Shown here: positions 9,086-43,193 of the stretch, piece after piece
How the letters are laid out: each line of letters opens with the position of its first letter
Numbering within the stretch: position 1 is the first letter of the stretch
Virus record (IMG/VR): IMGVR_UViG_3300044712_000557
Location: 1-64,000 of that record
From: a virus
Direction: 5' to 3' (one strand)
DNA length: 64,000 nt
Notes under the pieces: model-generated
The model's input: the letters and a program-made list of their open reading frames with translations, nothing else
Databases searched by the model: none
Told to the model about the DNA's origin: nothing
Program-made: the position numbers and the translations under genes

Positions 9086-9175
9086 CTCTCTTTGCTATGT
9101 AGCCGAGCAGGCGCGTCCAGGCCCTGCTGCCAACGTGAGGTTGGTCCTTGAGAGGCGGCTACAGAGCAAAGGGAC
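9085..9175 (+). ncRNA. Three-way-junction RNA element before the first rightward gene
   Basis: A 16 bp stem with one mismatch (9090-9105 with 9156-9171) encloses two hairpins: AGCAGG...CCTGCT and CCAAC-GTGAG-GTTGG. It ends 16 bases before the ribosome binding site of the gene at 9198. It may be the 3' domain of the large RNA, a leader element or a processed RNA. Confidence 0.6.
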
Positions 9176-9427: not shown

Positions 9428-9580
9428 ATGATTTGGGTCATCGAGTCGTACGACAGCGAGCGTGAGCAGTGGCACCCAATCACTTGGAATTGCTACGACA
9501 CGCGTCGCGAGGCCAGGATCGTCCTGGCGCGGTTGCGCATGGGGCGCAAGGGTCGCATTCGAGCGTACACGCAAGCGTAG
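9428..9580 (+). CDS. Hypothetical protein, 50 aa (paralogue of 13263-13469)
   Basis: Starts MIWVIESYDSEREQWHPITW; the gene at 13263 starts MSNIVWVIEVRRGRNKRWEP with the same WVIE core, a basic middle and a conserved Trp-Pro, so the two are probably duplicates. GGGAGAG precedes the ATG. Function unknown. Confidence 0.55.
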   Translation: MIWVIESYDSEREQWHPITWNCYDTRREARIVLARLRMGRKGRIRAYTQA

Positions 9581-9592
9581 CAACTCTGAAAG

Positions 9593-9659
9593 CAGTCCGG
9601 GCTCGCGGAGGGCACCGTAGGGGCCAGCCTCAGTAGACCTCGGCTTGCTTCCTGGACTG
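9593..9659 (+). ncRNA. Structured intergenic RNA element
   Basis: CAGTCCGGG (9593-9601) pairs over nine positions with CCTGGACTG (9651-9659); the one G-U pair forms only in the plus-strand RNA. The enclosed 49 bases can form a second GAGG/CCTC stem. It lies between two tiny genes. Confidence 0.5.
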
Positions 9660-9706
9660 TATTGAGCGTTGCTGCTTACACATCTCAAAACTAAGTGGAG
9701 GATGCG

Positions 9707-9883
9707 ATGGCGACCTTCTATGCTCTGCCCCTTGCTGACAAGGGCTTCGTCCCGGTCAACGAGTTCAGCAATCCCGTGCGCTGGTACGTGGCTCAGGACG
9801 GAAAGGACTGGCCGGTCTACGGCCCGTACGCGTCGCGTGAGGCGGCTGAGGCTGAGGCCAAGCGTCGCTCTGGAGGCTTCTAA
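9707..9883 (+). CDS. Hypothetical protein, 58 aa
   Basis: Starts at ATG 9707 after GTGGAGGATGCG. Sequence MATFYALPLADKGFVPVNEF then WYVAQDGKDWPVYGPYASRE and a helical Ala/Glu-rich end; this resembles small one-domain proteins with repeated aromatic strand motifs but no family is recognised. The stop overlaps the next start (TAATG). Confidence 0.6.
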   Translation: MATFYALPLADKGFVPVNEFSNPVRWYVAQDGKDWPVYGPYASREAAEAEAKRRSGGF

Positions 9884-10077
9884 TGCGCAAGTGCCAGAAG
9901 TGCAACGAGCCGTCTCTGACCGCTCAGTTTCGCGAGCGGTCGCTCCCTGGCCTCAAGATCCTCTGCGCCGAGTGCAACGTGGACGTGCGCACGTCCTCGA
10001 CGCGCAAGGTCACGTTCCAGACGCGCACGGTCGAGGACCGCTACACGCTGCTCGCGCGCAAGCACGGGCTGGCGTAG
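9883..10077 (+). CDS. Zinc-ribbon protein, 64 aa
   Basis: MRKCQKCNEPSLTAQFRE then LKILCAECNVDVR gives two CxxC knuckles 22 residues apart, a classical zinc ribbon. Such proteins bind nucleic acid or other proteins. It is followed directly by the tandem pseudoknots. Confidence 0.65.
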   Translation: MRKCQKCNEPSLTAQFRERSLPGLKILCAECNVDVRTSSTRKVTFQTRTVEDRYTLLARKHGLA

Positions 10078-10086
10078 GCAACGTGT

Positions 10087-10142
10087 CGTAAGCTGGCTGG
10101 AGAGCGGGCTACCGGCTCCCAGGGGCGACCAAGACAGGTAGC
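10087..10142 (+). ncRNA. Pseudoknot RNA element, copy 1
   Basis: Stem 1: CTGG-A-GAGC (10097-10105, bulged A) pairs with GCTC-CCAG (10115-10122). The nine-base loop contains GCTACC (10108-10113), which pairs with GGTAGC (10137-10142) downstream, giving an H-type pseudoknot. The linker ends CCAAGACA. Copy 2 keeps the fold with different bases in both stems. Confidence 0.7.
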
Positions 10143-10152
10143 ACGCGACGTT

Positions 10153-10212
10153 CGTAAGGCTGGCTGGATACCGGGGCACCGGGTACCAGGGGCCAAATCC
10201 AAGACAGGTGCC
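10153..10212 (+). ncRNA. Pseudoknot RNA element, copy 2
   Basis: Same fold as copy 1: CTGG-A-TACC (10164-10172) pairs with GGTA-CCAG (10182-10189), and loop GGCACC (10175-10180) pairs with GGTGCC (10207-10212). Relative to copy 1, stem 1 changed from GAGC/GCTC to TACC/GGTA and stem 2 from GCTACC/GGTAGC to GGCACC/GGTGCC, so pairing is kept by compensatory changes. Unpaired parts (CGTAAG, GGG, CCAGGGGC, CCAAGACA) are conserved. Confidence 0.7.
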
Positions 10213-10222
10213 GCCTCAAAGC

Positions 10223-10292
10223 CGAGACTCAAGGTGTACCGTAATGAATCTCGCTAGCGCGGCGAGCGGTCTATAAACCACTTTGAGTCTCG
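10223..10292 (+). ncRNA. Long-stem hairpin directly upstream of a ribosome binding site
   Basis: CGAGACTCAAGGTG (10223-10236) pairs over 14 positions with CACTTTGAGTCTCG (10279-10292), one of them G-U in the plus strand. The interior holds CTCGC-TAGCGCG-GCGAG. The stem ends three bases before the TTGGAGG of the next gene, so it may protect the 5' end or set translation. Confidence 0.6.
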
Positions 10293-10306
10293 ACTTGGAG
10301 GCGATC

Positions 10307-10480
10307 ATGGACGAGTCCTATAGCAATTCATTCGATGACTGCTGCCCTGAGTGCGGCGGTCTTGGCTGCGCCCTTGGAACCTTGGGCATGCTGCTCCATC
10401 TGCGTTGCCGTGACTGTGGCATGGACTGGTCGGTGCCTTCTCCTGACGCGTACGAGTCTGACTGGAGCGACAAGCTCTAG
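10307..10480 (+). CDS. Zinc-ribbon protein, 57 aa
   Basis: CCPECGGLGC in the N-terminal third and CRDCGMDW near the middle form a two-knuckle zinc ribbon; the tail is acidic. ATG 10307 follows CTTGGAGGCGATC. Function unknown. Confidence 0.6.
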   Translation: MDESYSNSFDDCCPECGGLGCALGTLGMLLHLRCRDCGMDWSVPSPDAYESDWSDKL

Positions 10481-10493: not shown

Positions 10494-10652
10494 GCCTCGT
10501 CGCTTAGTAACGAGGCACCTTCTACGCTGAGCACGTAAGTGAGAGGCAAGCCTAGCGCCTGCAGTACTAGTCAACTCAGGCCTCCTAGGGCAGAGTCAGC
10601 ACGCTTGTCATCGTCCCGTCAGACTCAATCGGGATGTACGTGTTCAGCGTAG
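10494..10652 (+). ncRNA. Structured intergenic region
   Basis: A hairpin GCCTCGT-CGCTTAGTA-ACGAGGC (10494-10516) is followed by a long-range perfect nine-base stem, CTACGCTGA (10522-10530) with TCAGCGTAG (10644-10652), that encloses about 110 bases. No ORF is convincing. It again ends shortly before a strong ribosome binding site (10675-10682). Confidence 0.5.
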
Positions 10653-10690
10653 AGGGTTCGTTTCACGTCGCACTTGATTGGAGGTTGATC

Positions 10691-12243: not shown

Positions 12244-12377
12244 TCGTTCGTACCCTCTCCCCTTGGGGTCCAGGGGTGATGCTGACTGCGGTGCGCGTCA
12301 GGCCCAGGGATAGGCTGACTACGTCGCGCCCGAGGAGCGCTATCGCATCGCAGGGCAGTGCAGAGCAGTTATCCAGG

Positions 12378-12411
12378 GGCGCACCCCTTGATCGCTCACA
12401 GGGGGTGCGCC
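12378..12411 (+). promoter_or_regulatory. Perfect 10 bp hairpin in a 186 bp leader
   Basis: GGCGCACCCC (12378-12387) pairs perfectly with GGGGTGCGCC (12402-12411) across a 14-base loop. No T-run follows, so it is not a simple terminator. The gap 12244-12429 has no gene; further upstream a CTGAC/GTCAG hairpin is possible. The kinase-like gene starts at 12430. Confidence 0.5.
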
Positions 12412-12429: not shown

Positions 12430-12888
12430 ATGCGAGCACCCAAGGTTGAAGTCACACTGGATCCCGTTGACGCTTGCAAGTCAGTCGTTCTAGTCAACGG
12501 CAAGAGGGCAGCCTTCACCTTTGAGGCTGTCTCGTGCCGCGTGATCTTTATGACTGAGCGTTACGTCGTGAAGGTTGTCGATCCTAACGCGAACGACGCT
12601 GGCTACAGCGACCTCAATCCCAGGGCTCAGAATCGATGCGAGGTTCGCACCTGGAAGCGCATCTCCAAGAGCGACGATAGGGCACGCTTCGCAGAGATGC
12701 TCTGCTGGGATCCCAAGTACACCTGGGTGTGCCAGGAGCGTGTTCGTACGTCTCGGCGAGCTACAACTCAAGAGCGCAACTTCCTAGAGGAAGTAGCCGC
12801 ACGCTACAACGTTGGCGACATCCATCGTGGCAACATTGGCAGACGTAAAGGACAGCCAGTCATCCTCGACTATGGCTGCAAAGGCTAG
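12430..12888 (+). CDS. Mini protein-kinase-like / APH-fold protein, 152 aa
   Basis: The motif order follows the kinase fold: RYVVKVV with a candidate ATP-binding lysine (about residue 50), an acidic helix CEVRTWKRI (about 75), a hinge-like TWVCQERV, a catalytic loop VGDIHRGNIG (D and N as in D-x-H-x-G-N) and a metal-binding ILDYG in place of DFG. At 152 aa it is about half the usual length, lacking most of the C-lobe. It could phosphorylate a host protein or be a binding-only pseudokinase. ATG 12430 follows GAGGAAGGC. Confidence 0.6.
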   Translation: MRAPKVEVTLDPVDACKSVVLVNGKRAAFTFEAVSCRVIFMTERYVVKVVDPNANDAGYSDLNPRAQNRCEVRTWKRISKSDDRARFAEMLCWDPKYTWVCQERVRTSRRATTQERNFLEEVAARYNVGDIHRGNIGRRKGQPVILDYGCKG

Positions 12889-17442: not shown

Positions 17443-17634
17443 ATGGAATCTGAGATTGTCGTGAGTACTCTTCCGACCGAGGAAGATCGAGAGACGTTCT
17501 GGGAGATGCTCTACCTGCTCTCAGGCTGGGGTCTGTGTGATCCTGAGTTTCACAAGCTGGGGGCCAAGCTGTTCAACGACGAGTCGTTCACTGATGACAT
17601 GGAAGGACTACACGGCAAATGCCACATTCAATGA
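17443..17634 (+). CDS. Hypothetical acidic protein, 63 aa
   Basis: AGAGGAGATCGC precedes ATG 17443. Acidic helical protein (EEDRETFWEMLYLLSGWG). A GCGTGC/GCACGC hairpin (17409-17430) lies in the leader. Function unknown. Confidence 0.55.
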   Translation: MESEIVVSTLPTEEDRETFWEMLYLLSGWGLCDPEFHKLGAKLFNDESFTDDMEGLHGKCHIQ

Positions 17635-18453: not shown

Positions 18454-18607
18454 GCTTCGTTTCATGTTCCGCGCACGACGGGCCTTTGAGCAGGGATGGA
18501 TGGCTGTCGCTGAGCGCAGTGGTGGAAAGCTGGCATTTGCAGATTGCCCCTACTGGAGCCTGCTGGATCTGATGGACGAGAGGCGCGCATATTGGGAGGG
18601 AAAGTGA
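18440..18607 (+). CDS. Hypothetical protein, 55 aa
   Basis: Basic N-terminus (MLSPRLRFMFRARRAFEQGW) and an acidic end. The stop overlaps the GTG of the AAA+ gene. Not recognised. Confidence 0.5.
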   Translation: MLSPRLRFMFRARRAFEQGWMAVAERSGGKLAFADCPYWSLLDLMDERRAYWEGK

Positions 18608-20166
18608 GCAACCAAGCTCTGATCGATCAGTTGCTGGCAGCACGCGAGGTTAGCACGCCGCTGATCGCGATCACCACGCCTGATCAGCCGGCAGTGGCGA
18701 GCGCCATCACGAAGTCGCTGAATGGCAAGACGCCTGTCATCTCGTGGGATCGCGTGAAGGGCTTCCAGCCCAAGAACAAGAAGGGTGTCGAGGCCCTGGA
18801 GTCGTTCTGCAACGCGAACGACATCAAGCCTGAAGATCTGTCCTTCGCTACCGCCGAGGCGAGGGACGCGTTCCGGCTTGCGATGACCCTGCCTGAGCAC
18901 ACTGTCCTGATCGCGTTCTCCCTGGACCGGTTCATGCGTGAGGAGTCTGGGGCAGTGGTCGTGCAGGCGATCCTGAACCTGCGTGATGCGTTCCTCAGCA
19001 ACCATCGCATGCTGATCGGCCTCAGCCCTGACTTCTCGTTGCCTGCCGAGATCCAGCATGACGTGATCCTACTGGACGATCCTCTGCCTGACGATGACAC
19101 CTATCGCGAGATCGTGAAGACGGCCATCAAGAACACCAAGGATGGCGGGCACGAGATCGAGAAGGTGTCCACTGAGACGGTGACGCAGACGGTTCGCGCT
19201 ATCCGTGGCCTGTCTCCATTCGAGGCCGATCAGGTTGTTTCGATGTCGATCGCCTCGACCGGCATGAAGAAGATCGACCTTGCGTCAGCGTGGAAGCTCA
19301 AGGTGGGAGCTACGAATAAGATCAAGGGTCTGACGATGACCCTCGACGGTCCCGACCTGAAGGATCTGCGTGGACTTAATCAGATCACCAGCATGCTCAA
19401 CGACCTTTGGGCTGGGCCTGAGCCGCCCGAGCTGGTCGTGCGCGTAGACGAGATCGACAAGACGATGGCTGGCCTGGGCAGCAATGGTGGCCCTGGCGAC
19501 AACACTGGTGTCTCCCAGGATCTCAACCAGAACTTCCTCGTCAACATGGAAGACAACGGATGGGTGGGCGCCATCCTGGTCGGCATCCGTGGCTCTGGCA
19601 AGACGATCCTCACGCAGAGCATCGGGGCTGCGCATGGTGTGCCAACGATCGCGATGGACGCTGGCGCGATGAAGGGCAAGCATGTGGGAGAGAGCGAGCA
19701 GGCATTCCGCGAAGCCTTCCGTACGATCAAGTCGATCGGAGGCTCTCGTGTTTGCGTGCTTGCTACCTGCAACAAGCTGGATGTCCTTCCTCCTGAGTTG
19801 CTGCGCAGGTTCAAGCTGCAGATCTGGTACTTCGATCTTCTGACCAAGGAAGAGCGAGATGCCCTGTGGCCCATCTACCTCAAGCGTTACGGTCACGACC
19901 TTAATGCCGAGCGTCCACATGACGAAGGGTGGACCGGCGCAGAGATCCGCAACTGCTGCGAGATGGCTTACAAGCTGCGCCGAAACGTGAAGGAGTACGG
20001 GAATACGTGCATCGTGCCCGTTACGAAGTCTGACCCTCGATCGGTTGAGGCCCTTCGTGACAAGGCGCAAAACTGTTTCTTGTCCGCTTCGTACCCTGGA
20101 CCGTATCGTAAGCCAGTGGCCGAAGTGGTCGAGTTCTCTGGTCGTCAGTTGGGAGGTAAGAATTGA
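18604..20166 (+). CDS. AAA+ ATPase with Walker B placed before Walker A
   Basis: The 520 aa protein has an N-terminal half that is not recognised and a C-terminal AAA+ module. Walker B-like VRVDEID is at about residues 279-285, before Walker A GIRGSGKT at 327-334; then GKHVGESEQAFREAF, a sensor 1 region LATCNKLD (about 386-393) and PPELLRRFK with candidate arginine fingers. The strand order therefore differs from canonical AAA+ proteins. GTG 18604 overlaps the upstream stop and follows GGGAGGG. The next gene is DUF3150-like and a VWA protein is encoded at 41796, so a MoxR/CobS-like chaperone role is likely (inference). Confidence 0.75.
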   Translation: MSNQALIDQLLAAREVSTPLIAITTPDQPAVASAITKSLNGKTPVISWDRVKGFQPKNKKGVEALESFCNANDIKPEDLSFATAEARDAFRLAMTLPEHTVLIAFSLDRFMREESGAVVVQAILNLRDAFLSNHRMLIGLSPDFSLPAEIQHDVILLDDPLPDDDTYREIVKTAIKNTKDGGHEIEKVSTETVTQTVRAIRGLSPFEADQVVSMSIASTGMKKIDLASAWKLKVGATNKIKGLTMTLDGPDLKDLRGLNQITSMLNDLWAGPEPPELVVRVDEIDKTMAGLGSNGGPGDNTGVSQDLNQNFLVNMEDNGWVGAILVGIRGSGKTILTQSIGAAHGVPTIAMDAGAMKGKHVGESEQAFREAFRTIKSIGGSRVCVLATCNKLDVLPPELLRRFKLQIWYFDLLTKEERDALWPIYLKRYGHDLNAERPHDEGWTGAEIRNCCEMAYKLRRNVKEYGNTCIVPVTKSDPRSVEALRDKAQNCFLSASYPGPYRKPVAEVVEFSGRQLGGKN

Positions 20167-21059
20167 GCGCAGAGCCGCAGATCTCCGACTCTACCGTCGT
20201 ACTCAGCCTGGAGCTTGGTCGTGTCTCCAATCGCCGTCGCATCAAGAGCGACACCGAGGCGATCACGACTGATATCGACAGGTCGATGCTGCACCTTGGC
20301 GTCGACCTGTTCGACGCCCCTGAGCTTCGCGCGTGCCAGAACTTCCTGGTGAAGCTGAAGGCCTCCATCAAGCTCTTGACCGTTCCGTCGTTCTTCCGTG
20401 GCGGCATGTACCTCGTCAAGCTGGAGGCCTTCGAACAGGTCGACAAGCTGATCGAAGAGGCCAAGGAGGAATTCAAGCCTCTCGTGGAGGCATTCGCCAA
20501 CGCGGTCGATCAGCGTCGTGACGAGGCCAAGGAACGCCTCAAGGGTGCGTTCAATGCTGCTCTCTACCCGAATCGAGAGCAGGTTCTGGCGGCCTACAGC
20601 ATCTCGCATCAGTGGCTCACGCTGGCTACACCAACCTCGCTCAAGAAGATCAACATGGCCCTCTTTGAGCGAGAGCGTGTGAAGGCCGAGGAGGCCCTTA
20701 AGGTCGCCACCGAGGGAATCACAGCCCTGCTAGCAACGGAAGCCAAGCACCTCAGCGAGCACCTGATCGATCGCCTTACGCCTGATGCTGATGGTGAGGC
20801 GAAGCAGATCCGCAAGGGCTCAGTGAATGGCATTACTGAGTTCCTCTCCACGTTCCATCTCCGCAACATCGGAACCAGCGAAGAGCTTGATGCCCAGGTC
20901 GAGAAGATCAAGCGTCTGATGACCGGTGTCGACGTGGTCGATCTCCGTGGCAATGAGACGTTGCGCAACGACGTTGCTAAGGGGTTCAAGGAAGTTGCCT
21001 CTGCGCTCGATGCGCTGATCGTGGACAAGCCAAAGCGCTACATGGGCGGCGATGAGTAA
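20163..21059 (+). CDS. DUF3150-like partner of the AAA+ ATPase, 298 aa
   Basis: Start TTG 20163 overlaps the ATPase stop and follows GGGAGGT. The protein opens with a strand region (LGRVSNRRRI) followed by long amphipathic helices (VDKLIEEAKEEFKPLVEAFA ... ERVKAEEALKVATEGITALL). Position right after an AAA+ ATPase and the mostly helical make-up match DUF3150 proteins of phage MoxR-type operons. Role: probably substrate or adaptor protein of the ATPase. Family assignment is from layout and should be tested. Confidence 0.6.
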   Translation: MSAEPQISDSTVVLSLELGRVSNRRRIKSDTEAITTDIDRSMLHLGVDLFDAPELRACQNFLVKLKASIKLLTVPSFFRGGMYLVKLEAFEQVDKLIEEAKEEFKPLVEAFANAVDQRRDEAKERLKGAFNAALYPNREQVLAAYSISHQWLTLATPTSLKKINMALFERERVKAEEALKVATEGITALLATEAKHLSEHLIDRLTPDADGEAKQIRKGSVNGITEFLSTFHLRNIGTSEELDAQVEKIKRLMTGVDVVDLRGNETLRNDVAKGFKEVASALDALIVDKPKRYMGGDE

Positions 21060-34616: not shown

Positions 34617-34690
34617 GCGGCAGTGGTGTAGCGATAGCACGCGATTCTGCCAAGTTCGCAGTGCGGGTTTAACTCCCGCCTGCCGCTCCA
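34617..34690 (+). tRNA. tRNA-Gly(GCC)
   Basis: GCGGCAG/CTGCCGC acceptor, T73, encoded CCA, D stem GTGT/GCAC, anticodon loop CTGCCAA, T arm GCGGG-TTTAACT-CCCGC. The anticodon stem has one mismatch. Confidence 0.88.
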
Positions 34691-34699
34691 AATTCGTAT

Positions 34700-34790
34700 G
34701 GGGGGTTAGCCTCAATCTGGTAAGGCACCCGGCTGTAACCCGGCGGTTGGTCACCATGCCATCGTGGTTCAAATCCACGACTCCCCACCA
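34700..34790 (+). tRNA. tRNA-Tyr(GTA)
   Basis: GGGGGGT/ACTCCCC acceptor with one G-T pair, A73, CCA. Anticodon loop CTGTAAC and a long variable arm, as expected for bacterial tRNA-Tyr. Confidence 0.88.
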
Positions 34791-34796
34791 TTCAGC

Positions 34797-34870
34797 GCGT
34801 CCTTGGTGTAGCACTAACACGCTATCCTTCCAAGTTAGAGTCGAGGGTGGGACTCCCTCAGGACGCTCCA
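34797..34870 (+). tRNA. tRNA-Gly(TCC)
   Basis: GCGTCCT/AGGACGC acceptor, T73, CCA, anticodon loop CTTCCAA, T arm GAGGG-TGGGACT-CCCTC. D arm nearly identical to tRNA-Gly(GCC), suggesting duplication. The gap 34871-34940 holds only a CCCCC/GGGGG hairpin. Confidence 0.88.
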
Positions 34871-34940
34871 TCACAGCTAGGGCAAGAACGCGCCTAGCTA
34901 GCCGTGCCCCCGTGGTCCAGACTGGCCAGGGGGTTCGTTC

Positions 34941-35014
34941 GCCGCCCTAGTTCAATAGCAGAATGGATCCTTGGTAAGGATCTGACATCGGAGCGTAACC
35001 GATGGGCGGCTCCA
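34941..35014 (+). tRNA. tRNA-Thr(GGT)
   Basis: GCCGCCC/GGGCGGC acceptor, T73, CCA. Anticodon stem GATCC/GGATC with loop TTGGTAA. The T loop reads AGCGTAA instead of TTCRANT, which is unusual. Confidence 0.85.
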
Positions 35015-35015
35015 T

Positions 35016-35090
35016 CCCTCACAGGTGTTATGGCAGCATTCCAGGCTCTTAACCTGCGCGGTCAGAGTTCAAATCTCTGGTGGGGGACCA
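35016..35090 (+). tRNA. tRNA-Lys(CTT)
   Basis: CCCTCAC/GTGGGGG acceptor, A73, CCA, anticodon loop CTCTTAA, T arm CAGAG-TTCAAAT-CTCTG. Closely similar to tRNA-Lys(TTT) at 37975. Confidence 0.88.
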
Positions 35091-35095
35091 AATTC

Positions 35096-35173
35096 GCGAG
35101 TGTGACGGTAACTGGCAAACCTAGCAGGTCGAGAGCCTGCTGTTTGTGGGTTCAACTCCCACCGCTCGCACCA
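35096..35173 (+). tRNA. tRNA-Leu(GAG), short variable loop, C33
   Basis: GCGAGTG/CGCTCGC acceptor, A73, CCA. Perfect anticodon stem GCAGG/CCTGC with loop TCGAGAG; the central triplet is GAG, with C instead of T at position 33. Variable loop is five bases (TGTTT), unlike normal class II tRNA-Leu. The amino-acid call is therefore less certain. Confidence 0.65.
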
Positions 35174-35174
35174 T

Positions 35175-35250
35175 GCCAGCGTACTCCAACAGCAGAGAGA
35201 CGCGACTCAGACTCGCGACAGTGGTGGTGCGAATCCACTCGCTGGCACCA
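35175..35250 (+). tRNA. tRNA-Leu(CAG), short variable loop
   Basis: GCCAGCG/CGCTGGC acceptor, A73, CCA. Anticodon stem CGCGA/TCGCG with loop CTCAGAC. Variable loop of five bases, class I shape. Confidence 0.78.
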
Positions 35251-35251
35251 T

Positions 35252-35327
35252 GGCGCACTATCCCAACGGCAGAGGAACGGGTCTTAGAAGCCCGCAAGTC
35301 TGGGTTCAAATCCCAGGTGCGCCACCA
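35252..35327 (+). tRNA. tRNA-Leu(TAG), short variable loop
   Basis: GGCGCAC/GTGCGCC acceptor, A73, CCA. Anticodon stem CGGGT/GCCCG, loop CTTAGAA, variable CAAGT, T arm CTGGG-TTCAAAT-CCCAG. Confidence 0.8.
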
Positions 35328-35420
35328 ACCTGACGTGCTTTGCGCCTATGACTCGTGATCCTTGAGGGGAGGGACACGACGAGGATGCGCTCCTTAAGCA
35401 AGAGTGAAACATTCCCTCAT
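35328..35420. other. Gap without recognised gene
   Basis: No tRNA or ORF could be fitted in these 93 bases between two leucine tRNAs. Confidence 0.5.
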
Positions 35421-35496
35421 CGGCACGTAGCCCAACGGCAGAGGCAGCAGCCTTAAAACCTGCTCAGTGAGAGTTCGAATCTCTCGGTGCCGACCA
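35421..35496 (+). tRNA. tRNA-Leu(TAA), short variable loop
   Basis: CGGCAC/GTGCCG acceptor (last pair mismatched), A73, CCA. Loop CTTAAAA, variable TCAGT, T arm GAGAG-TTCGAAT-CTCTC. Confidence 0.78.
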
Positions 35497-35497
35497 T

Positions 35498-35575
35498 CGC
35501 CGACTGATGTAACTTGGCAAACATCCTCGTCTCAAAAACGAGGTCTTCTGGGTTCAACTCCCAGGTCGGCGACCA
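35498..35575 (+). tRNA. tRNA-Leu(CAA), short variable loop
   Basis: CGCCGAC/GTCGGCG acceptor, A73, CCA. D stem ATGT/ACAT, perfect anticodon stem CTCGT/ACGAG with loop CTCAAAA, variable GTCTT. Confidence 0.82.
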
Positions 35576-35592
35576 TCTTGATTCTTCATGAA

Positions 35593-35671
35593 GGGGTACG
35601 AGAGAGCTTGGCGTTCTCTCTGCGTTGTCAGCGCAGGTAATCGGTGGGTTCAAATCCCACGTACCCCGCCA
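35593..35671 (+). tRNA. tRNA-Asp(GTC)
   Basis: GGGGTAC/GTACCCC acceptor, G73, CCA. Anticodon stem CTGCG/CGCAG, loop TTGTCAG, T arm GTGGG-TTCAAAT-CCCAC. Confidence 0.9.
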
Positions 35672-35697
35672 TGAGTAATCAAGAAGCAGGGGCAGGA

Positions 35698-35714
35698 GTG
35701 GGTTCGAATCCCAC
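35698..35714 (+). pseudogene. T-arm relic of a tRNA
   Basis: GTGGG-TTCGAAT-CCCAC is a perfect T arm followed by CA but no matching acceptor or anticodon arm is found upstream, so it looks like a remnant of a recombination event in the array. Confidence 0.5.
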
Positions 35715-35721
35715 CATGAAT

Positions 35722-35804
35722 GCGGGAGCGTTCGTGTGGTGTATAGGAAGCACGTCCCCTTAAAAGCATAAGCGGGTGGAGCGGTTCGACTCCGCACTGT
35801 CGCA
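35722..35804 (+). pseudogene. Degenerate tRNA-like sequence
   Basis: Ends GCGGGAG and CTGTCGC pair at six of seven positions and a GCGG-TTCGACT-CCGC T arm is present, but no regular anticodon stem fits and no CCA follows. Possibly a decayed leucine tRNA (a CTTAAAA stretch is present). Confidence 0.4.
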
Positions 35805-35858
35805 GTGTCCTAGGAATCACACAGAGTGGTCATGCCCACGCGAAAGGCGCTCTGACGT

Positions 35859-36030
35859 GACAGCTTAGTGTAACGGTAGCACACCCGCACATACCAAAGC
35901 ACACACGAATGATCTTCCGATGCGTGCGCTCTACGGCTCTGCAGGGCCGGCGATACGAAGATCATATTAGCCCCGTGGTACGAGCGCTGTGGAGCGCCTG
36001 TGGCCACAGCAGCGCAAACGGCCACGGGGT
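35859..36030 (+). ncRNA. Structured insert with tRNA 5'-half-like start
   Basis: 35859-35882 looks like the 5' half of a tRNA (acceptor GACAGCT, TA, D stem GTGT/GCAC) but the rest is missing. It is followed by GATCTTC (35911-35917) pairing with GAAGATC (35957-35963), and CCCCGTGG (35971-35978) with CCACGGGG (36022-36029) enclosing a CTGTGG/CCACAG hairpin. Not a tRNA as a whole. Confidence 0.5.
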
Positions 36031-36040
36031 ATTACAATTC

Positions 36041-36114
36041 GGGCGACGAGTAGGACGGGAATACGGCTGGTTTGCACCCAGCAAGACAGGGTTCGACTCC
36101 CTGGTTGTCCACCA
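36041..36114 (+). tRNA. tRNA-Ala(TGC)
   Basis: GGGCGAC/GTTGTCC acceptor with two G-T pairs, A73, CCA. Anticodon stem GCTGG/CCAGC, loop TTTGCAC, T arm CAGGG-TTCGACT-CCCTG. Confidence 0.88.
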
Positions 36115-36287
36115 AATACTGCCAGCGGTGATGCTGGTTGTGGGGATGCCGGCTATCCCACGGCGACTTCTTTGCGTGAGTGGAGCAATAGTAGTCGCAG
36201 ATTAGTCCGGCCAGCGTGAAACGCAAGGTCACTCCTTAGTGACAGGGGGATCCGGCAATGCCTGAGGCATCCAGTACTCCCCCATTT
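36115..36287 (+). ncRNA. Structured non-tRNA insert
   Basis: No ORF and no tRNA. Hairpins GTCACT-CCTT-AGTGAC (36228-36243) and ATGCC-TGA-GGCAT (36258-36270); GGGGGA (36245-36250) pairs with TCCCCC (36278-36283) around the latter. The region may be an RNA gene or a processing spacer. Confidence 0.45.
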
Positions 36288-36364
36288 GGCCTCGTCTTCT
36301 AACTGGTCGAGGATACTGCCCTCTCAAGGCGGCGATACCGGTTCGATCCCGGTCGAGGCTACCA
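36288..36364 (+). tRNA. tRNA-Glu(CTC)
   Basis: GGCCTCG/CGAGGCT acceptor (first pair G-T), A73, CCA. Anticodon stem CTGCC/GGCGG, loop CTCTCAA, T arm ACCGG-TTCGATC-CCGGT. Confidence 0.88.
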
Positions 36365-36379
36365 TCCGATAGGAGACGA

Positions 36380-36730
36380 ATGTCGTACGATCATAAGTTG
36401 TACATGAGAGAGTGGTACAAGAAGAACAAGAAGAAGCACGTTGGGTACGTTTCTTCTTCCAAGTCTTCTGTATGCCTCTACATCGACAACGCAAAGAGGT
36501 GCCCATGTTCCGACTGCGGGAAGACTTACCCCACTTATGTGATGCAGTTTGATCACGTCCGTGGTCGTAAGTTGGTAGCTCTCTCAAGAGCTGCCCAAAG
36601 CGGGCTTGGGATGCAAAGAGTCAAAGACGAGATAGCAAAATGCGAGGTTGTGTGCGCGAATTGCCACGCCGAGCGAACTCATCAAAGGTTGTTGTTGCGG
36701 GGTAGGGCAGTCCCTACACAAGTCTCATAA
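36380..36730 (+). CDS. HNH endonuclease (homing type), 116 aa
   Basis: CSDCGKTYPTYVMQFDHVRG and KCEVVCANCHAERTHQR are the HNH core with its zinc cysteines. Related to the second HNH gene at 37092. It starts 15 bases after tRNA-Glu, so it is a free-standing homing-type nuclease inserted in the tRNA array. Confidence 0.85.
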   Translation: MSYDHKLYMREWYKKNKKKHVGYVSSSKSSVCLYIDNAKRCPCSDCGKTYPTYVMQFDHVRGRKLVALSRAAQSGLGMQRVKDEIAKCEVVCANCHAERTHQRLLLRGRAVPTQVS

Positions 36731-36769
36731 ACTTGATGGCGAGCGTGCAACTCGCTCCTCCGCTCCCAT

Positions 36770-36844
36770 GGTTCTCTAGTGAAATGGCCATCACGACAGG
36801 CTTACACCCTGTTATTCAGAGTTCGAATCTCTGGGGAACCACCA
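36770..36844 (+). tRNA. tRNA-Val(TAC)
   Basis: GGTTCTC/GGGAACC acceptor, A73, CCA. D stem GTGA/TCAC, anticodon stem ACAGG/CCTGT, loop CTTACAC, regular T arm. Confidence 0.9.
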
Positions 36845-36845
36845 T

Positions 36846-36919
36846 GGCAGTCCAAGATGGAGTTTCAGGCGCGCTCATAACGCGTATCTGGGCAGGTTCG
36901 AATCCTGCGGCTGCCACCA
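36846..36919 (+). tRNA. tRNA-Met(CAT)
   Basis: GGCAGTC/GGCTGCC acceptor, A73, CCA. Anticodon stem GCGCG/CGCGT, loop CTCATAA. The first pair is G-C and the three G-C anticodon-stem pairs of initiators are absent, so elongator Met (or Ile2 after lysidine modification) is likely. Confidence 0.85.
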
Positions 36920-36932
36920 TCTACGGTTAGAA

Positions 36933-37000
36933 GTAGGCCCACTCAAATGAGAGCGACCCAGCGGAATTGCTAACCGCTCATCGGTTGCGTGTGGGTCTAC
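36933..37000 (+). other. Ten-pair hairpin with tRNA-Ser-like core
   Basis: GTAGGCCCAC (36933-36942) pairs with GTGGGTCTAC (36991-37000). Inside, AGCGG-AATTGCTAA-CCGCT looks like an anticodon arm with a nine-base loop. No T arm or CCA, so it is not called as a tRNA. Confidence 0.45.
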
Positions 37001-37002
37001 TT

Positions 37003-37078
37003 GTGGCCGTAGTGTTAACGGTAAGCACGGGGAGTTGTGGCCTCCCTAGTCGCAGTTCAAATCTGCGCGGTCACCCCA
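37003..37078 (+). tRNA. tRNA-His(GTG)
   Basis: GTGGCCG/CGGTCAC acceptor with C73 as in histidine tRNAs, CCA. Anticodon stem GGGAG/CTCCC, loop TTGTGGC, T arm CGCAG-TTCAAAT-CTGCG. The -1 base is T in the gene, so G-1 must be added. Confidence 0.88.
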
Positions 37079-37091
37079 ATTGAGGAGAGAG

Positions 37092-37379
37092 ATGCCAAGC
37101 AGGGGAGCGAAGCGTACTGGGCAGTTCAAGGCGAGGTATAAGCTACGCTACGAATTGATCAACAGGCTAAAGGACAAGCCATGCGCTGAGTGTGGAAGTA
37201 CGTTCCCGACATACGTGATGGAGTTTGATCATGTACGTGGCGAGAAGAAGTGCAACGTGCCAAAGTTGTGGCATTGCAGCGAGGCGGTCTTTCTAGAGGA
37301 AGTATCGAAGTGCGACGTGGTGTGTTCCAATTGCCACAAGATTCGCACGAGGACAAGAGTTCACGGGGATGTAGGGTAG
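37092..37379 (+). CDS. HNH endonuclease (homing type), 95 aa
   Basis: CAECGSTFPTYVMEFDHVRG and KCDVVCSNCHKIRTRTR form the HNH core. Close relative of the gene at 36380. ATG 37092 follows GAGGAGAGAG. Its last 15 bases are the 5' end of tRNA-Pro(TGG), so gene and tRNA overlap. Confidence 0.82.
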   Translation: MPSRGAKRTGQFKARYKLRYELINRLKDKPCAECGSTFPTYVMEFDHVRGEKKCNVPKLWHCSEAVFLEEVSKCDVVCSNCHKIRTRTRVHGDVG

Positions 37380-37440
37380 TGGATTGCCCGCGTGGTTTGG
37401 GACCACGAAAGCGCAGGTTCGAGTCCTGTCATCCCCACCA
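37365..37440 (+). tRNA. tRNA-Pro(TGG)
   Basis: GGGGATG/CATCCCC acceptor, A73, CCA. Anticodon stem CGTGG/CCACG, loop TTTGGGA, T loop TTCGAGT. The 5' acceptor strand also codes the end of the HNH protein. Confidence 0.9.
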
Positions 37441-37506
37441 TTCGGGCGAGTAGCTGCGCCCTGCGAAGATTGACGCAGAACCTACGACGTAGGGGCTACA
37501 CAGAAC

Positions 37507-37585
37507 GGGGATATAGAGAAGCCTGCATTTTCTCACTCGCTTCGGAGGCGAACAAGCGCTGGTTGAAATCCAGCTATCCCCACCA
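37507..37585 (+). tRNA. tRNA-Pro(CGG)
   Basis: GGGGATA/TATCCCC acceptor, A73, CCA. D stem GAGA/TCTC, loop TTCGGAG, T arm GCTGG-TTGAAAT-CCAGC (T loop TTGAAAT). Confidence 0.85.
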
Positions 37586-37812
37586 TCTCATGAGGCGGCT
37601 CGCCCAAGGAGCCGTACGCCCGATGCGAGTGAGCAGAAGGCTGAAGGTGCGACGGCATCGCTTGGGCACAGAATGTAGCGCGGGCAGTAAGCTAGACCAT
37701 GGGGACGCTAAGCGCCCCTGGGTCAAGTGCTCCTCAATCCTTCCTGGCCTACGTGCTCACACACGTAGTGGATCGGAGCCTGGGCTGCCCCCACTTGAAT
37801 TCATAGACTTAT
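37586..37812 (+). ncRNA. Structured non-tRNA insert, about 220 nt
   Basis: Hairpins at 37597-37613 (GGCTC-GCCCAAG-GAGCC, seven-base loop), 37701-37718 (GGGG.CGC-TAA-GCG.CCCC) and 37749-37768 (CTACGTG-CTCACA-CACGTAG), with GGGCAG (37682-37687) pairing to CTGCCC (37785-37790) around the last two. No ORF. Looks like an independent folded RNA. Confidence 0.5.
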
Positions 37813-37888
37813 TGGGGCTTAGCATAATGGCAGTGCGGTAGGCTCTGACCCTACGCCAATAGAGGTTCGACTCCTCTAGCCCCAGCCA
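37813..37888 (+). tRNA. tRNA-Gln(CTG)
   Basis: TGGGGCT/AGCCCCA acceptor, G73, CCA. D stem GCAT/GTGC, anticodon stem GTAGG/CCTAC, loop CTCTGAC, T arm AGAGG-TTCGACT-CCTCT. Confidence 0.9.
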
Positions 37889-37896
37889 ACTTCCGT

Positions 37897-37973
37897 TCCT
37901 CAGTGGTGTAACTGGTAAGACCCCCGACTGTTAATCGGTGAGATTGTAGGTTCGAATCCTACCTGAGGAGCCA
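37897..37973 (+). tRNA. tRNA-Asn(GTT)
   Basis: TCCTCAG/CTGAGGA acceptor, G73, CCA, loop CTGTTAA, T arm GTAGG-TTCGAAT-CCTAC. Confidence 0.9.
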
Positions 37974-37974
37974 T

Positions 37975-38049
37975 CCCTCGCAAGTGTTACGGCAGCATAG
38001 CGGGCTTTTAACCCGACAGGTCAGAGTTCGAATCTCTGGCGAGGGACCA
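37975..38049 (+). tRNA. tRNA-Lys(TTT)
   Basis: CCCTCGC/GCGAGGG acceptor, A73, CCA, loop CTTTTAA, T arm CAGAG-TTCGAAT-CTCTG. Near copy of tRNA-Lys(CTT). Confidence 0.9.
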
Positions 38050-38056
38050 TTTCTAC

Positions 38057-38130
38057 GGGCTCTTAGTGAAACAGCATAACGCCTGCCTGATTAGCGGGAG
38101 TTCGCGGTGCGAATCCGTGAGAGCCTACCA
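38057..38130 (+). tRNA. tRNA-Ile(GAT)
   Basis: GGGCTCT/AGAGCCT acceptor (first pair G-T), A73, CCA. Anticodon stem CCTGC/GCGGG, loop CTGATTA, T loop TGCGAAT. Confidence 0.87.
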
Positions 38131-38136
38131 CTTCGT

Positions 38137-38212
38137 GCCGGTAAGGTGTCGAAGGAGACGCGCTCGCCTCGTAAGCGAGAGATGGCGGGTTCGATCCCCG
38201 TAACCGGCTCCA
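38137..38212 (+). tRNA. tRNA-Thr(CGT)
   Basis: GCCGGT/ACCGGC acceptor (last pair mismatched), T73, CCA. Anticodon stem CTCGC/GCGAG, loop CTCGTAA, T loop TTCGATC. Confidence 0.85.
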
Positions 38213-38216
38213 TCTC

Positions 38217-38368
38217 GGTGAGGGGCTGTGTTCGGCGTCTCGACAGTAAGAGACATGTGGTGCGGACACACCTGAGTTGCCCAGAGCGGATAAACACCGC
38301 CATGTATGGTAGCTTGGCACAGCGTAAAACGAAGGCGTCACTGCACGCCAACCTCACCTTTTCTTTTT
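38217..38368 (+). ncRNA. Structured insert ending in a T-rich tract
   Basis: GGTGAGG (38217-38223) pairs with CCTCACC (38352-38358), immediately followed by TTTTCTTTTT (38359-38368), terminator-like. Inside, GTCTC-GACAGTAA-GAGAC (38237-38254). Could be a small RNA with its own terminator. 38369-38400 shows nothing. Confidence 0.5.
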
Positions 38369-38400
38369 CGAGTCACGATCCGCAGACTCAAAGACCTTAA

Positions 38401-38476
38401 GCCGACTTAGCAATGACAGTTCATGCGCCCGCCTGAAGAGCGGGATATGTTGGGGCGGCACCAACAGTCGGCACCA
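38401..38476 (+). tRNA. tRNA-Phe(GAA)
   Basis: GCCGACT/AGTCGGC acceptor, A73, CCA. Anticodon stem CCCGC/GCGGG, loop CTGAAGA. T stem GTTGG/CCAAC is good but the T loop is GGCGGCA, without the TTC of normal tRNAs. Confidence 0.8.
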
Positions 38477-38482
38477 TTCTAC

Positions 38483-38559
38483 GGGCCTTGGCCCAGCATA
38501 TTCTGGGATGATCGATCTCAACGCAGATACCTCTCGGTGACAATTCTGCGGGTCCACCA
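38483..38559 (+). pseudogene. tRNA-like sequence ending in CCA, anticodon not assigned
   Basis: GGGCCT pairs with GGGTCC (G-T pairs), followed by A-CCA. Inside are CCCAG-CATATT-CTGGG and GCAGA/TCTGC hairpins, which do not give a standard cloverleaf. Confidence 0.35.
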
Positions 38560-38838
38560 GTTCGCCATGTGGGATCGCGAAAGGGTGGCGGAAAACCCGG
38601 AACCGCCAGCAAGAGTAACCTTAGGCGCGTGAAAGCTTCATGCTCGATATGGATGGCTGGGGCCAATGATAGGTTGCGACGACGGCTTACTTCTAGTGCC
38701 CCACATGGCACATCTCTATGGGACAGAAGACTCGCTGTTGTGTTCGTAAGCGTCAAGGATGGTACCGTCCTGAGCTACTACGGCACGATGGAGATCAGAA
38801 GACATCGTGGGGTAGGACCACACTGTCCCTCAATTCTT
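38560..38838. other. Non-coding spacer with hairpins
   Basis: No ORF or tRNA. Short hairpins such as GGCGG...CCGCC, GTGCC-CCACAT-GGCAC and GGATGG-TAC-CGTCC. Length (279 bases) and structure suggest another RNA insert, but no closing stem was found. Confidence 0.4.
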
Positions 38839-38909
38839 GCCGGTCGAGCTAGGCTCAGAGCGGTCCTGTAAACCGCCCTTGCTCGGTGCGATACCGAGGA
38901 CCGGCTCCA
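38839..38909 (+). tRNA. tRNA-Thr(TGT), C33
   Basis: GCCGGTC/GACCGGC acceptor, T73 as in the other threonine tRNAs, CCA. Anticodon stem GCGGT/ACCGC, loop CCTGTAA with C at position 33. Short D arm; T arm CTCGG-TGCGATA-CCGAG. Confidence 0.75.
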
Positions 38910-38913
38910 CTTC

Positions 38914-38988
38914 GGGGTCATACGCCAACGGCTAAGCGGACTGCCTTTCAAGCAGTTGATGAGGGTTCAATTCCCTCTGACCCTACCA
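38914..38988 (+). tRNA. tRNA-Glu(TTC)
   Basis: GGGGTCA/TGACCCT acceptor (first pair G-T), A73, CCA. Anticodon stem ACTGC/GCAGT, loop CTTTCAA, T arm GAGGG-TTCAATT-CCCTC. Confidence 0.9.
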
Positions 38989-38993
38989 TCTAT

Positions 38994-39064
38994 GCCGGGA
39001 AGAGCAACGCTGGACGGCACGGCTACCGCAATGGTCGGCTGCATAGGATCCAGCCCCGGCACCA
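38994..39064 (+). pseudogene. tRNA-like sequence ending in CCA, anticodon not assigned
   Basis: GCCGGG pairs with CCCGGC, then A-CCA. GGCTG/CAGCC could be a T stem with a nine-base loop. No regular anticodon arm; a GCACGGC stretch might be a decayed Arg loop. It lies just before the arginine group. Confidence 0.35.
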
Positions 39065-39069
39065 TCTGT

Positions 39070-39146
39070 CCTCCCGTAGCCCTAAGGATAGGGCACCAGC
39101 CCCCGAAGCTGGAGCTTAGTGGGTTCGATTCCCACCGGGAGTACCA
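39070..39146 (+). tRNA. tRNA-Arg(CCG), C33
   Basis: CTCCCG/CGGGAG acceptor (first pair C-T), A73, CCA. D stem GCCC/GGGC, perfect anticodon stem CCAGC/GCTGG with loop CCCCGAA, so position 33 is C. T arm GTGGG-TTCGATT-CCCAC. Confidence 0.78.
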
Positions 39147-39161
39147 TCCAAAGGAGTCGCA

Positions 39162-39197
39162 ATGAGCAACGGAGGAACGTCATGCTTATGTAGCTAA
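39162..39197 (+). CDS. Leader peptide (11 aa) upstream of 39213
   Basis: AAGGAG precedes ATG 39162; the frame MSNGGTSCLCS ends at TAA 39195-39197, which overlaps the AGGAGG of the next gene. Its last codons lie in the 5' arm of a hairpin that hides the next start, so its translation could open that hairpin. Confidence 0.45.
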   Translation: MSNGGTSCLCS

Positions 39198-39215
39198 GGA
39201 GGCTACCCAAGCATG
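39181..39215 (+). promoter_or_regulatory. Hairpin that sequesters a ribosome binding site and start codon
   Basis: CATGCTT (39181-39187) pairs with AAGCATG (39209-39215), which contains the ATG of the 56 aa gene. Within it GTAGC (39190-39194) pairs with GCTAC (39202-39206), leaving AAGGAG in the loop. A translational switch coupled to the leader peptide is likely. Confidence 0.6.
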
Positions 39216-39383
39216 GCTGCTTCGAACGATCGTTCCGCGAAGGACAAGCAGATGGCTGCGCGTCTGAAGGCTGAAGGTGATGACCGGCACATCGGCCGCT
39301 GCTGCATCTGCTACCGTATCATCTCCAACGGCGCTGCGTGCGAGAACCACTACGGTGCTCACGCGCGTGGTGCTAGCGACTAA
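39213..39383 (+). CDS. Small Cys/His protein, 56 aa
   Basis: Basic helical start (SAKDKQMAARLKAEGDD) and RCCICYRIISNGAACENHYG AH, a C..C..C..H..H zinc site. Flanked by tRNAs and controlled by an unusual leader. RNA binding is a guess from context. Confidence 0.6.
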   Translation: MAASNDRSAKDKQMAARLKAEGDDRHIGRCCICYRIISNGAACENHYGAHARGASD

Positions 39384-39439
39384 GCAGTATAGCTGCGGGC
39401 GACAGCTAAGTGGGGCTCATGCCGCCACATCGCCCTCAT

Positions 39440-39516
39440 GGCCCATTCGTTCAACTGGATGAGGATACCGGGCTACGAACCCGGAGATTGCAGTTCGAAT
39501 CTGCAGTGGGCCACCA
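39440..39516 (+). tRNA. tRNA-Arg(ACG)
   Basis: GGCCCAT/GTGGGCC acceptor, A73, CCA. Perfect anticodon stem CCGGG/CCCGG, loop CTACGAA, T arm TGCAG-TTCGAAT-CTGCA. Confidence 0.9.
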
Positions 39517-39520
39517 TCTT

Positions 39521-39595
39521 GGCGCTATAGCTCAACGGACAGAGCGCGAGTTTCCTAAACTCAAGGTCCGAGTTCGACTCTCGGTAGCGCCTCCA
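39521..39595 (+). tRNA. tRNA-Arg(CCT)
   Basis: GGCGCTA/TAGCGCC acceptor, T73, CCA. D stem GCTC/GAGC, loop TTCCTAA, T arm CCGAG-TTCGACT-CTCGG. Confidence 0.9.
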
Positions 39596-39607
39596 ACCTA
39601 GGAGCAT

Positions 39608-39793
39608 ATGGAACACCCAAGTGGATTCCCAATGAGTTCTTCGTTCTCCGTTGCTGTCAGAGTGCAAGATGACAATGGAGTCACCATCAAGCAAGAGCAG
39701 TTCTCGCTGACTGGCTACTTCAAGGACTCCTCCGAGATGTTAGCTAAAGCAGTCGAGTGGACGGACAAACAGAAGAGAGAAGCTAGAGAGTAA
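39608..39793 (+). CDS. Hypothetical protein, 61 aa
   Basis: TAGGAG precedes ATG 39608. Beta-rich (SSSFSVAVRVQDDNGVTIKQ) with a charged C-terminal helix. Unknown. Confidence 0.6.
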   Translation: MEHPSGFPMSSSFSVAVRVQDDNGVTIKQEQFSLTGYFKDSSEMLAKAVEWTDKQKREARE

Positions 39794-40338
39794 TGGACTC
39801 AGAGACAAAGGCCGGGTTGAGCGTGATCCTTGGAACCTTCCTCGCAGTCATCCTGCTGTCGTGGGTGGTCCAGGGAAACGACTGCTGGATGTTCAAGATC
39901 TTCGCACCGAAGTACGAGCAGCAGGAGATTCTTCTAAAGGAGGCAGCCGCCCAGACCGGGATGCCTGCTATTGCAAACTTCCGAGAGCGCAAGCTTCTCA
40001 AGGACATCATCGAGCTTCGTGACCAGAACGGGCTCGTGACCTATACGTACGTTTGGAACGAGTTCAATGGAAAGATGGTATTCTTCTGCGATAGCATCGG
40101 GTATGGAATCCCGTACGCTACGCAGTACACTTCCCCGGAGAAGATGGTCGGATACAACAGTGCGCCGGCCGTGGTTCCCCAGGCAGATCCCAACGGGCTC
40201 TTCTCCCCGGCATCAGCCGAGGGCACCTGGGTCATGTGTAAGAACCCCAACGGAAAGGAAGTGCGCCCTGTTTACGTAGAACCGCGCATCATCGTCTCCC
40301 CGTTCCCACTGACGAAACAGCCAGCGGAGCAGAACTAG
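39793..40338 (+). CDS. Membrane-anchored conserved phage protein, 181 aa
   Basis: One N-terminal membrane helix (LSVILGTFLAVILLSWVV) is followed by a conserved soluble domain with NFRERKLLKDIIELRDQNGL, MVFFCDSIGYGIPYATQYT and ADPNGLFSPASAEGTWVMC. From memory this is a widespread phage and plasmid-borne family of unknown function with the same blocks. The soluble domain should face the periplasm or outside. Confidence 0.65.
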   Translation: MDSETKAGLSVILGTFLAVILLSWVVQGNDCWMFKIFAPKYEQQEILLKEAAAQTGMPAIANFRERKLLKDIIELRDQNGLVTYTYVWNEFNGKMVFFCDSIGYGIPYATQYTSPEKMVGYNSAPAVVPQADPNGLFSPASAEGTWVMCKNPNGKEVRPVYVEPRIIVSPFPLTKQPAEQN

Positions 40339-40360
40339 AATCAACAGGGTCTGTTGATTC
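40338..40360 (+). other. Perfect 10 bp hairpin
   Basis: GAATCAACAG-GGT-CTGTTGATTC directly after the stop of the previous gene, without a T-run. It is followed by CACAGCG/CGCTGTG (about 40361-40400), another closing stem. Probably an mRNA 3' end or processing signal before tRNA-Arg(TCT). Confidence 0.5.
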
Positions 40361-40422
40361 ACAGCGAGTGTCGAGAAATCAACCGGTCGTGCGCTGTGAC
40401 CGTACTCGCGACAGCGCGCCAT

Positions 40423-40500
40423 GGCCCCTTGGTGTAACCCGGACAAGCATACTTGGCTTCTAACCTTGAGGCGACAGTTCGAATCTGTCAGGGGCCTCCA
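40423..40500 (+). tRNA. tRNA-Arg(TCT)
   Basis: GGCCCCT/AGGGGCC acceptor, T73, CCA. Loop CTTCTAA, T arm GACAG-TTCGAAT-CTGTC. The anticodon stem CTTGG/CCTTG has two T-T mismatches. Confidence 0.8.
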
Positions 40501-40506
40501 TCTTTC

Positions 40507-40600
40507 AGTGGCGTAGTGTATGGCAGCACGGGGGGACTTATAAACCCTATAGCGCCAGATTAGCGCACCGGATTGGGTTCGATTCCCAACGCCACTACCA
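40507..40600 (+). tRNA. Long-variable-arm tRNA, anticodon TAT (Ile?)
   Basis: AGTGGCG/CGCCACT acceptor, A73, CCA. D stem GTGT/GCAC. The best seven-base loop is CTTATAA, giving TAT. A long variable arm with GCGC-CAGATTA-GCGC is present, which isoleucine tRNAs normally lack. A Tyr- or Leu-derived tRNA with a changed anticodon is possible, so identity is open. Confidence 0.6.
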
Positions 40601-40601
40601 T

Positions 40602-40692
40602 GGAAGGGATGATCGAGTTGGCAGATCACCTACCTGCTAAGTAGGACAGCCCTCATAAGGCTGCGAGAGTTCGATTCTCTCCCCTTCCGCCA
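40602..40692 (+). tRNA. tRNA-Ser(GCT)
   Basis: GGAAGGG/CCCTTCC acceptor, G73, CCA. D stem GATC/GATC, anticodon stem CCTAC/GTAGG, loop CTGCTAA, long variable arm, T arm GAGAG-TTCGATT-CTCTC. Confidence 0.9.
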
Positions 40693-40705
40693 CCTTAGTG
40701 AGACT

Positions 40706-41068
40706 ATGGAAAAACCAAGGCGTCTTCTGTTTTCGGTCACGGCGAAGGACTTAGATATCCAGACCTTCTGTACGGGTGGCAATGGAGGCCAGCACAGGAA
40801 CGCCAAGCAGAATGGCGTACGACTCATCCATCGGGCCTCAGGAGCCCGCGCAGAGCATCGGGACGGACGGGACCAGGGGAAGAACCGCAGGGAGGCCTTC
40901 CTGAAGCTCCTAGAGACTCCAGAGTGGAAGGCGTGGTCGAAGATGGAAGTCTCCAGAAGGCTAGGACTGATCACTGCGGCTGAGAATGCTGTAGAGGAAG
41001 CCATGGCAGCTCCCAACCTACGTATCGAGGTTAAGGGAGACGACGGCACATGGCACGAGATTGAATAA
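40706..41068 (+). CDS. Release-factor-like protein with GGQ motif, 120 aa
   Basis: FCTGGNGGQHRNAKQNGVRL (GGQ at 27-29) followed by HRASGARAEHRDGRDQGKNRREAF matches the catalytic domain of class I release factors and ArfB/ICT1-type peptidyl-tRNA hydrolases. There is no stop-codon-recognition domain. The C-terminus is helical, then acidic, not the basic tail that ArfB uses to enter empty ribosomes. It may free stalled ribosomes or cleave peptidyl-tRNA. It sits between serine tRNAs. Confidence 0.85.
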   Translation: MEKPRRLLFSVTAKDLDIQTFCTGGNGGQHRNAKQNGVRLIHRASGARAEHRDGRDQGKNRREAFLKLLETPEWKAWSKMEVSRRLGLITAAENAVEEAMAAPNLRIEVKGDDGTWHEIE

Positions 41069-41069
41069 C

Positions 41070-41143: not shown

Positions 41144-41158
41144 TCTTAAGGAGAAACG

Positions 41159-42497: not shown

Positions 42498-42501
42498 CGT
42501 G

Positions 42502-43047: not shown

Positions 43048-43145
43048 TCTAAGAGCGCCACAAACTATCTGGTTCCAATGGGGTCTACGTTGTGGCCCGG
43101 CGCTGAACCCTGCAATCCCCTCTAAGCGGGGAATAATGTCCGCAT

Positions 43146-43182: not shown

Positions 43183-43193
43183 ACTGAGGCGTA

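Follow-up and report, generated by a model that had tools for sequence, protein, structure and literature searches.

Repeatedly, H-type pseudoknots in which the core is conserved have turned out to be ligand sensors, and to our knowledge few pseudoknot regulators of phage mRNA have been described. Among the closest known systems, the guanidine III aptamer keeps the sequence of its core while P1 varies freely (PMC5696562), and guanidine-III (ykkC-III, RF01763) requires ACGA, conserved without exception, in the strand that precedes P2 (PMC2864571). STAXI is a tandem pseudoknot motif of two or more repeats with frequent UUCG tetraloops (PMC2864571). In phages, the gene 32 operator of T4 and T2 is a single pseudoknot, after which comes a leader that is A+U-rich and unstructured (PMC3014915), and the HK022 put RNA consists of two stem-loops that bind RNA polymerase (PMC9378689).

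Here we analyzed a window of 64,000 bases, part of the 93,162-base virus record IMGVR_UViG_3300044712_000557 from an uncultured tailed phage, in which two pseudoknots lie in tandem; a third copy is found in a related phage. Like guanidine-III, these elements are small H-type pseudoknots upstream of a start codon, with a conserved core, a variable P1 and an A-rich third strand. However, ACGA is absent and the three copies have just GG at that place, L1 is 2 nt whereas about 6 nt (C6–U11) occupy the P2 groove in guanidine-III, and no guanidine-related gene adjoins the element. Membership of that family, suspected by eye, was rejected, as the RF01763 model was not matched at E up to 10 and ACGA is missing. 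The locus resembles STAXI in its tandem pseudoknots and in a weakly antirestriction-like gene nearby, yet the Rfam model of STAXI is unmatched at E up to 10, UUCG occurs in no copy, and the copy in the related phage is solitary. With the T4/T2 operator it has in common an H-type pseudoknot in phage mRNA upstream of a start codon, but a hairpin of -46.5 kcal/mol stands here where the gene 32 leader is unstructured, and no single-strand-binding protein gene is adjacent. The put RNA is likewise a cis-acting RNA of about 60–70 nt in a phage early operon; it has two adjacent stem-loops without a pseudoknot, whereas each copy here is a pseudoknot. Rfam as a whole gave no relevant match at E up to 10 for 130–291 nt of the window or for the copy in the relative, in agreement with an earlier note, made from the sequence of the window, that no named family fits. 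The plan is partly common to guanidine-III, STAXI, gene 32 and put while their defining features are not, and a common plan is not membership.

Two predicted H-type pseudoknots lie in tandem between two small genes

The two copies are on the + strand at 10087–10142 (56 nt) and 10153–10212 (60 nt), as established by exact decomposition, pair count and model match, with a start-to-start spacing of 66–67 nt. The earlier note had given these positions, lengths and period, and every string that it named was verified. A stretch of 35 bases is common to both copies at 83% identity without gaps, and a one-base insertion places the copies in different reading frames.

Copy 1 reads CGTAA, P1b GCT, GG, P1 CTGG-A-GAGC, GG, P2 GCTACC, G, P1' GCTC-CCAG, G, P1b' GGC, GACCAAGACA, P2' GGTAGC. 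Its P1b (GCU/GGC as RNA) pairs 10092–10094 with 10124–10126, below an internal loop of GG (10095–10096) with G (10123). P1 pairs 10097–10100 and 10102–10105 with 10115–10118 and 10119–10122 around a bulged A at 10101, and P2 pairs 10108–10113 with 10137–10142; the loops are L1 (GG, 10106–10107), L2 (G, 10114) and L3 (10127–10136). Copy 2 reads, in the same order, CGTAA, GGCT, GG, CTGG-A-TACC, GG, GGCACC, G, GGTA-CCAG, G, GGCC, AAATCCAAGACA, GGTGCC. Here P1b (GGCU/GGCC as RNA) pairs 10158–10161 with 10191–10194, the internal loop is formed by GG (10162–10163) with G (10190), P1 pairs 10164–10167 and 10169–10172 with 10182–10185 and 10186–10189 around a bulged A at 10168, and P2 pairs 10175–10180 with 10207–10212, the loops being L1 (GG, 10173–10174), L2 (G, 10181) and L3 (10195–10206).

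The 8-bp stem 1 with its bulged A and the 6-bp stem 2 had been described correctly, with their pairs intact in both copies; our analysis adds the lower helix P1b, which lies below the conserved GG/G internal loop. In all three copies (two in the window, one in the relative), L1 is 2 nt, L2 is 1 nt, P2 is 6 bp and P1 is 7–8 bp. Exact decomposition gives the order S1-L1-S2-L2-S1'-L3-S2', in which L3 is longer than the short L1 and L2. This is the classical H-type arrangement, and by its predicted fold class each copy fits a classical H-type pseudoknot.

The copies occupy a gap of 229 nt, from the upstream stop codon (ending at 10077) to the likely ATG at 10307, and not of 178 nt as previously reported. 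In the open reading frame list, the upstream gene, here called A (9883–10077, + strand), encodes a small Cys-rich protein of 64 aa that is 52% identical to its homologue in the related phage. The downstream gene, Z (10307–10480, + strand; phrog_33891), encodes a zinc-ribbon protein of 57 aa that is 72% identical there. The homologue of Z in that phage matches Pfam Lar at 7.6e-5, below the Pfam cut-off, by which Z would be weakly Lar-like.

Covariation supports a selected RNA fold

All counted pairs, P2 included, are standard in both window copies (17/17). Over 56 aligned positions, leaving out two indels, the copies differ by 10 substitutions, eight of which fall on both sides of four pairs that all remain Watson–Crick, while no pair is altered on one side only and none is broken. 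The compensatory change claimed earlier is therefore real. When 10 substitutions were placed at random, all pairs were kept with four compensated in 1 of 200,000 trials. Of 3,000 dinucleotide shuffles of 10078–10220, 24 contained such a pseudoknot and none contained two, and sliding the 3' partners by 1–3 columns left only 27–50% of cells paired. Column shuffling reached 35/500, a weak control, since just two sequences are compared. Nested-fold stability gives no signal for the copies (z of -0.9 and +0.5); because ordinary nested folding is not unusually stable here, the case for the fold is one of pairing and covariation. Together with the third copy described below, the covariation and the shuffles bear out the earlier proposal of a selected RNA fold, whose existence we regard with high confidence as well supported.

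A third copy is present in a related phage

The relative, IMGVR_UViG_3300013232_000161 (34,402 bases; hereafter G001), was reached through gene Z. It is syntenic with the window phage and has many proteins in common with it, mostly at 40–65% identity, reaching 81% for the terminase and about 43–72% near the pseudoknot locus. A covariance model built from the two window copies, with P1 and P1b pairs supplied and P2 pairs withheld, was searched directly with cmsearch and found a single copy in G001 at L005:4540–4588 (27.8 bits, E 1.2e-4 over 266 kb). This was the one further significant match, the next-best having an E of 0.5.

The G001 copy reads AGC, GG, CCCATGC, GG, GGCACC, G, GCATGGG, G, GCT, AGCCAAGCACA, GGTGCC. 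As MAFFT misplaces its P1, the pairs were checked by exact decomposition, which shows a P1 of 7 bp with 7/7 pairs kept and no sequence in common with the window P1. The loops follow in identical order and, like stem 2, have hardly changed: between the two phages L1, L2 and L3 are retained, as are the ACC/GGU half of P2, CGGGGCACCGG and CCAAG(C)ACAGGTGCC. The earlier note had made homologues with maintained pairing in related phages the main test of the fold; the two-copy model, run on related phages, recovered a third copy with all pairs kept, so that by this test the fold is not refuted. Both window copies carry a U.G pair in P1b where G001 has C-G, and because this change keeps pairing only in + strand RNA, it favors + strand RNA.

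At both loci all copies are co-oriented with the neighboring genes, and the distance from the preceding stop codon to P1b is 14 nt in the window (gene A) and 18 nt in G001 (a gene I), where at least five early genes precede the copy. The copy is followed by Z in the window and by another gene, y, in G001, with Z further downstream. As the flanking genes differ (A and Z against I and y), they suggest neither a target gene nor a ligand. The tandem arrangement is not general, with two copies in the window and one in G001.

Searches elsewhere gave no additional copy. When the region and the element were compared at the DNA level with 50,697 phage records, neither had a match, in the case of the element even at E 10, and searches with the flanking proteins led to G001 only. 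Other relatives found through the terminase are fragments that end short of the corresponding place and are uninformative on the presence of a copy. A wider, structure-filtered pattern scan of viral contigs returned only the window and G001 among the matches listed. In other pattern scans, a single viral-contig match without stem 1 was set aside as a chance match, only G001 was genuine among 14 contigs, and seven matches in one genome scan all lacked stem 1. The candidate with an E of 0.5, in another GC-rich phage (L170:12795–12737, minus strand; 5-bp P1, 14.6 bits), is not significant and is not claimed; this place (12737–12795) adjoins degenerate tRNA-like sequences.

The nearest cultured genome by its AAA protein (32%), Tunturiibacter phage Tunturi_3, has no pseudoknot copy. 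An AAA ATPase and the next gene (18544–21059 in the window) are common to both phages at 29–32% identity, and this region shared with an acidobacterial phage may hint at the host group. The 93-kb window phage also carries 34 tRNA genes (34617–44219). Inside this tRNA region, an open reading frame (40706–41068) is 57% identical to a Tunturi_3 protein annotated as an RF-1 domain peptide chain release factor. In the late block, a single open reading frame of 2,524 aa (47071–54645, minus strand) is probably a multi-domain polyvalent protein.

A predicted hairpin buries the ribosome site of gene Z

Copy 2 adjoins a long hairpin at 10212–10303 (+ strand), an inverted repeat with 25-nt arms that are 88% complementary, which has one base in common with P2 of that copy and a predicted stability of -46.5 kcal/mol (z -6.4). 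The Shine–Dalgarno sequence of Z (GGAGG, 10297–10301), ahead of the likely ATG at 10307, is paired inside its 3' arm, with a predicted unpaired probability of 0.20 whether or not the P2 strands are held as in the pseudoknot. No competing-structure switch onto this site is visible in the predicted accessibility for the window phage. In G001, the ribosome site downstream is predicted to become more accessible when the P2 strands are so held, rising from 0.53 to 0.71. Since the accessibility of the Z site is unchanged by the pseudoknot, its predicted burial in either state argues against a simple translational switch at the Shine–Dalgarno in the window phage.

Very stable hairpins with long arms are found repeatedly in early intergenic gaps of the two phages, at 9087–9170, 9577–9675, 10212–10303, 10517–10657 and 12369–12410 in the window and at L131:12817–12919 and 17481–17572 (minus strand) in G001, and several sit directly before a Shine–Dalgarno and start codon. 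Their recurrence suggests that these hairpins, including 10212–10303, may be RNase III processing sites. The loop of the G001 hairpin at L131:12817–12919 (minus strand) could form a pseudoknot of its own, CCTGAC/GTCAGG with CATGG/CCATG, in a different geometry; GGGGCTAGCC is present both in this loop and in the G001 pseudoknot copy.

Discussion

We propose, with a probability of about one half, that the two repeats represent a new family of phage cis-acting RNA, an aptamer-like pseudoknot whose core is recognized by a ligand or protein. The repeats would be modules within a transcribed early mRNA, each made up, in order, of P1b, the GG/G internal loop, P1, a GG loop of 2 nt, P2, a G loop of 1 nt and a third strand that is rich in A and terminates in CCAAG(C)ACA. 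P1 would serve as a structural strut that is free to vary in sequence, while the sequence-conserved L1-P2-L2-L3 core would be the most likely recognition surface for a small ligand or for a phage or host protein. Such recognition would set the expression or lifetime of the surrounding early-gene mRNA. Against this reading, just three copies are seen, in two uncultured phages, the flanking genes differ between the loci, and the window shows no simple Shine–Dalgarno switch.

The leading alternative, which we consider unlikely, is a processing and stability element, in which an RNase III cut in the adjacent hairpin would free the next Shine–Dalgarno and the pseudoknots would then protect the upstream mRNA against exonucleases entering from its 3' end. 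It would account for copies that begin 14–18 nt past a stop codon at both loci, for the adjoining 25-nt-arm hairpin that contains the Z Shine–Dalgarno, and for the repetition of long-arm hairpins in the early gaps of both phages. However, no such hairpin follows the G001 copy, and a passive barrier has no need of conserved loops and core. As the conserved core stands on a variable P1, as in the guanidine III aptamer, our analysis favors an aptamer-like cis element over a passive exonuclease block.

A role as antiterminator like that of HK022 put RNA, with the element acting on RNA polymerase in the early operon, appears improbable. Modules of about 60 nt near where the rightward block of early genes begins recall the put RNAs of about 70 nt downstream of early promoters (PMC9378689), but those are two stem-loops without a pseudoknot, no terminator-like site was found nearby on the + strand, and the G001 copy comes only after at least five early genes. 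We give equally little credence to a single-stranded DNA structure for replication, recombination or packaging, as considered for STAXI. All pairs except the U.G of P1b are possible in DNA, and genes for DNA handling and antirestriction are found close to the pseudoknots of STAXI (PMC2864571), a setting that the weakly Lar-like Z may echo; yet that U.G favors + strand RNA, the copies are always co-directional with genes, and their position is not the same in the two phages. Chance or a by-product of coding sequence, already disfavored, is very improbable: the frame past the gene A stop is open for about 60 codons and an in-frame GTG open reading frame spans the G001 copy, but the two window copies are not in the same frame, in G001 the reading frame of the upstream gene runs straight into more stops, and the shuffles and the substitution simulation reject chance. 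The same immediate closure in G001 and the difference in frame rule out readthrough of the gene A stop, and a frameshift signal is ruled out as the copies sit after stop codons.

Returning to the aptamer-like element, it is probably a novel regulatory RNA in early genes. More tentatively, it may stand for a new class of phage-encoded pseudoknot aptamer, a riboswitch or protein sensor, in tandem here, that would control early genes during infection. Ordinary annotation would miss the element because none of the cultured phages compared is closely related to this lineage. As a compact new phage RNA backed by covariation, it can be used directly as a model for searches, and its small size suits it to probing.
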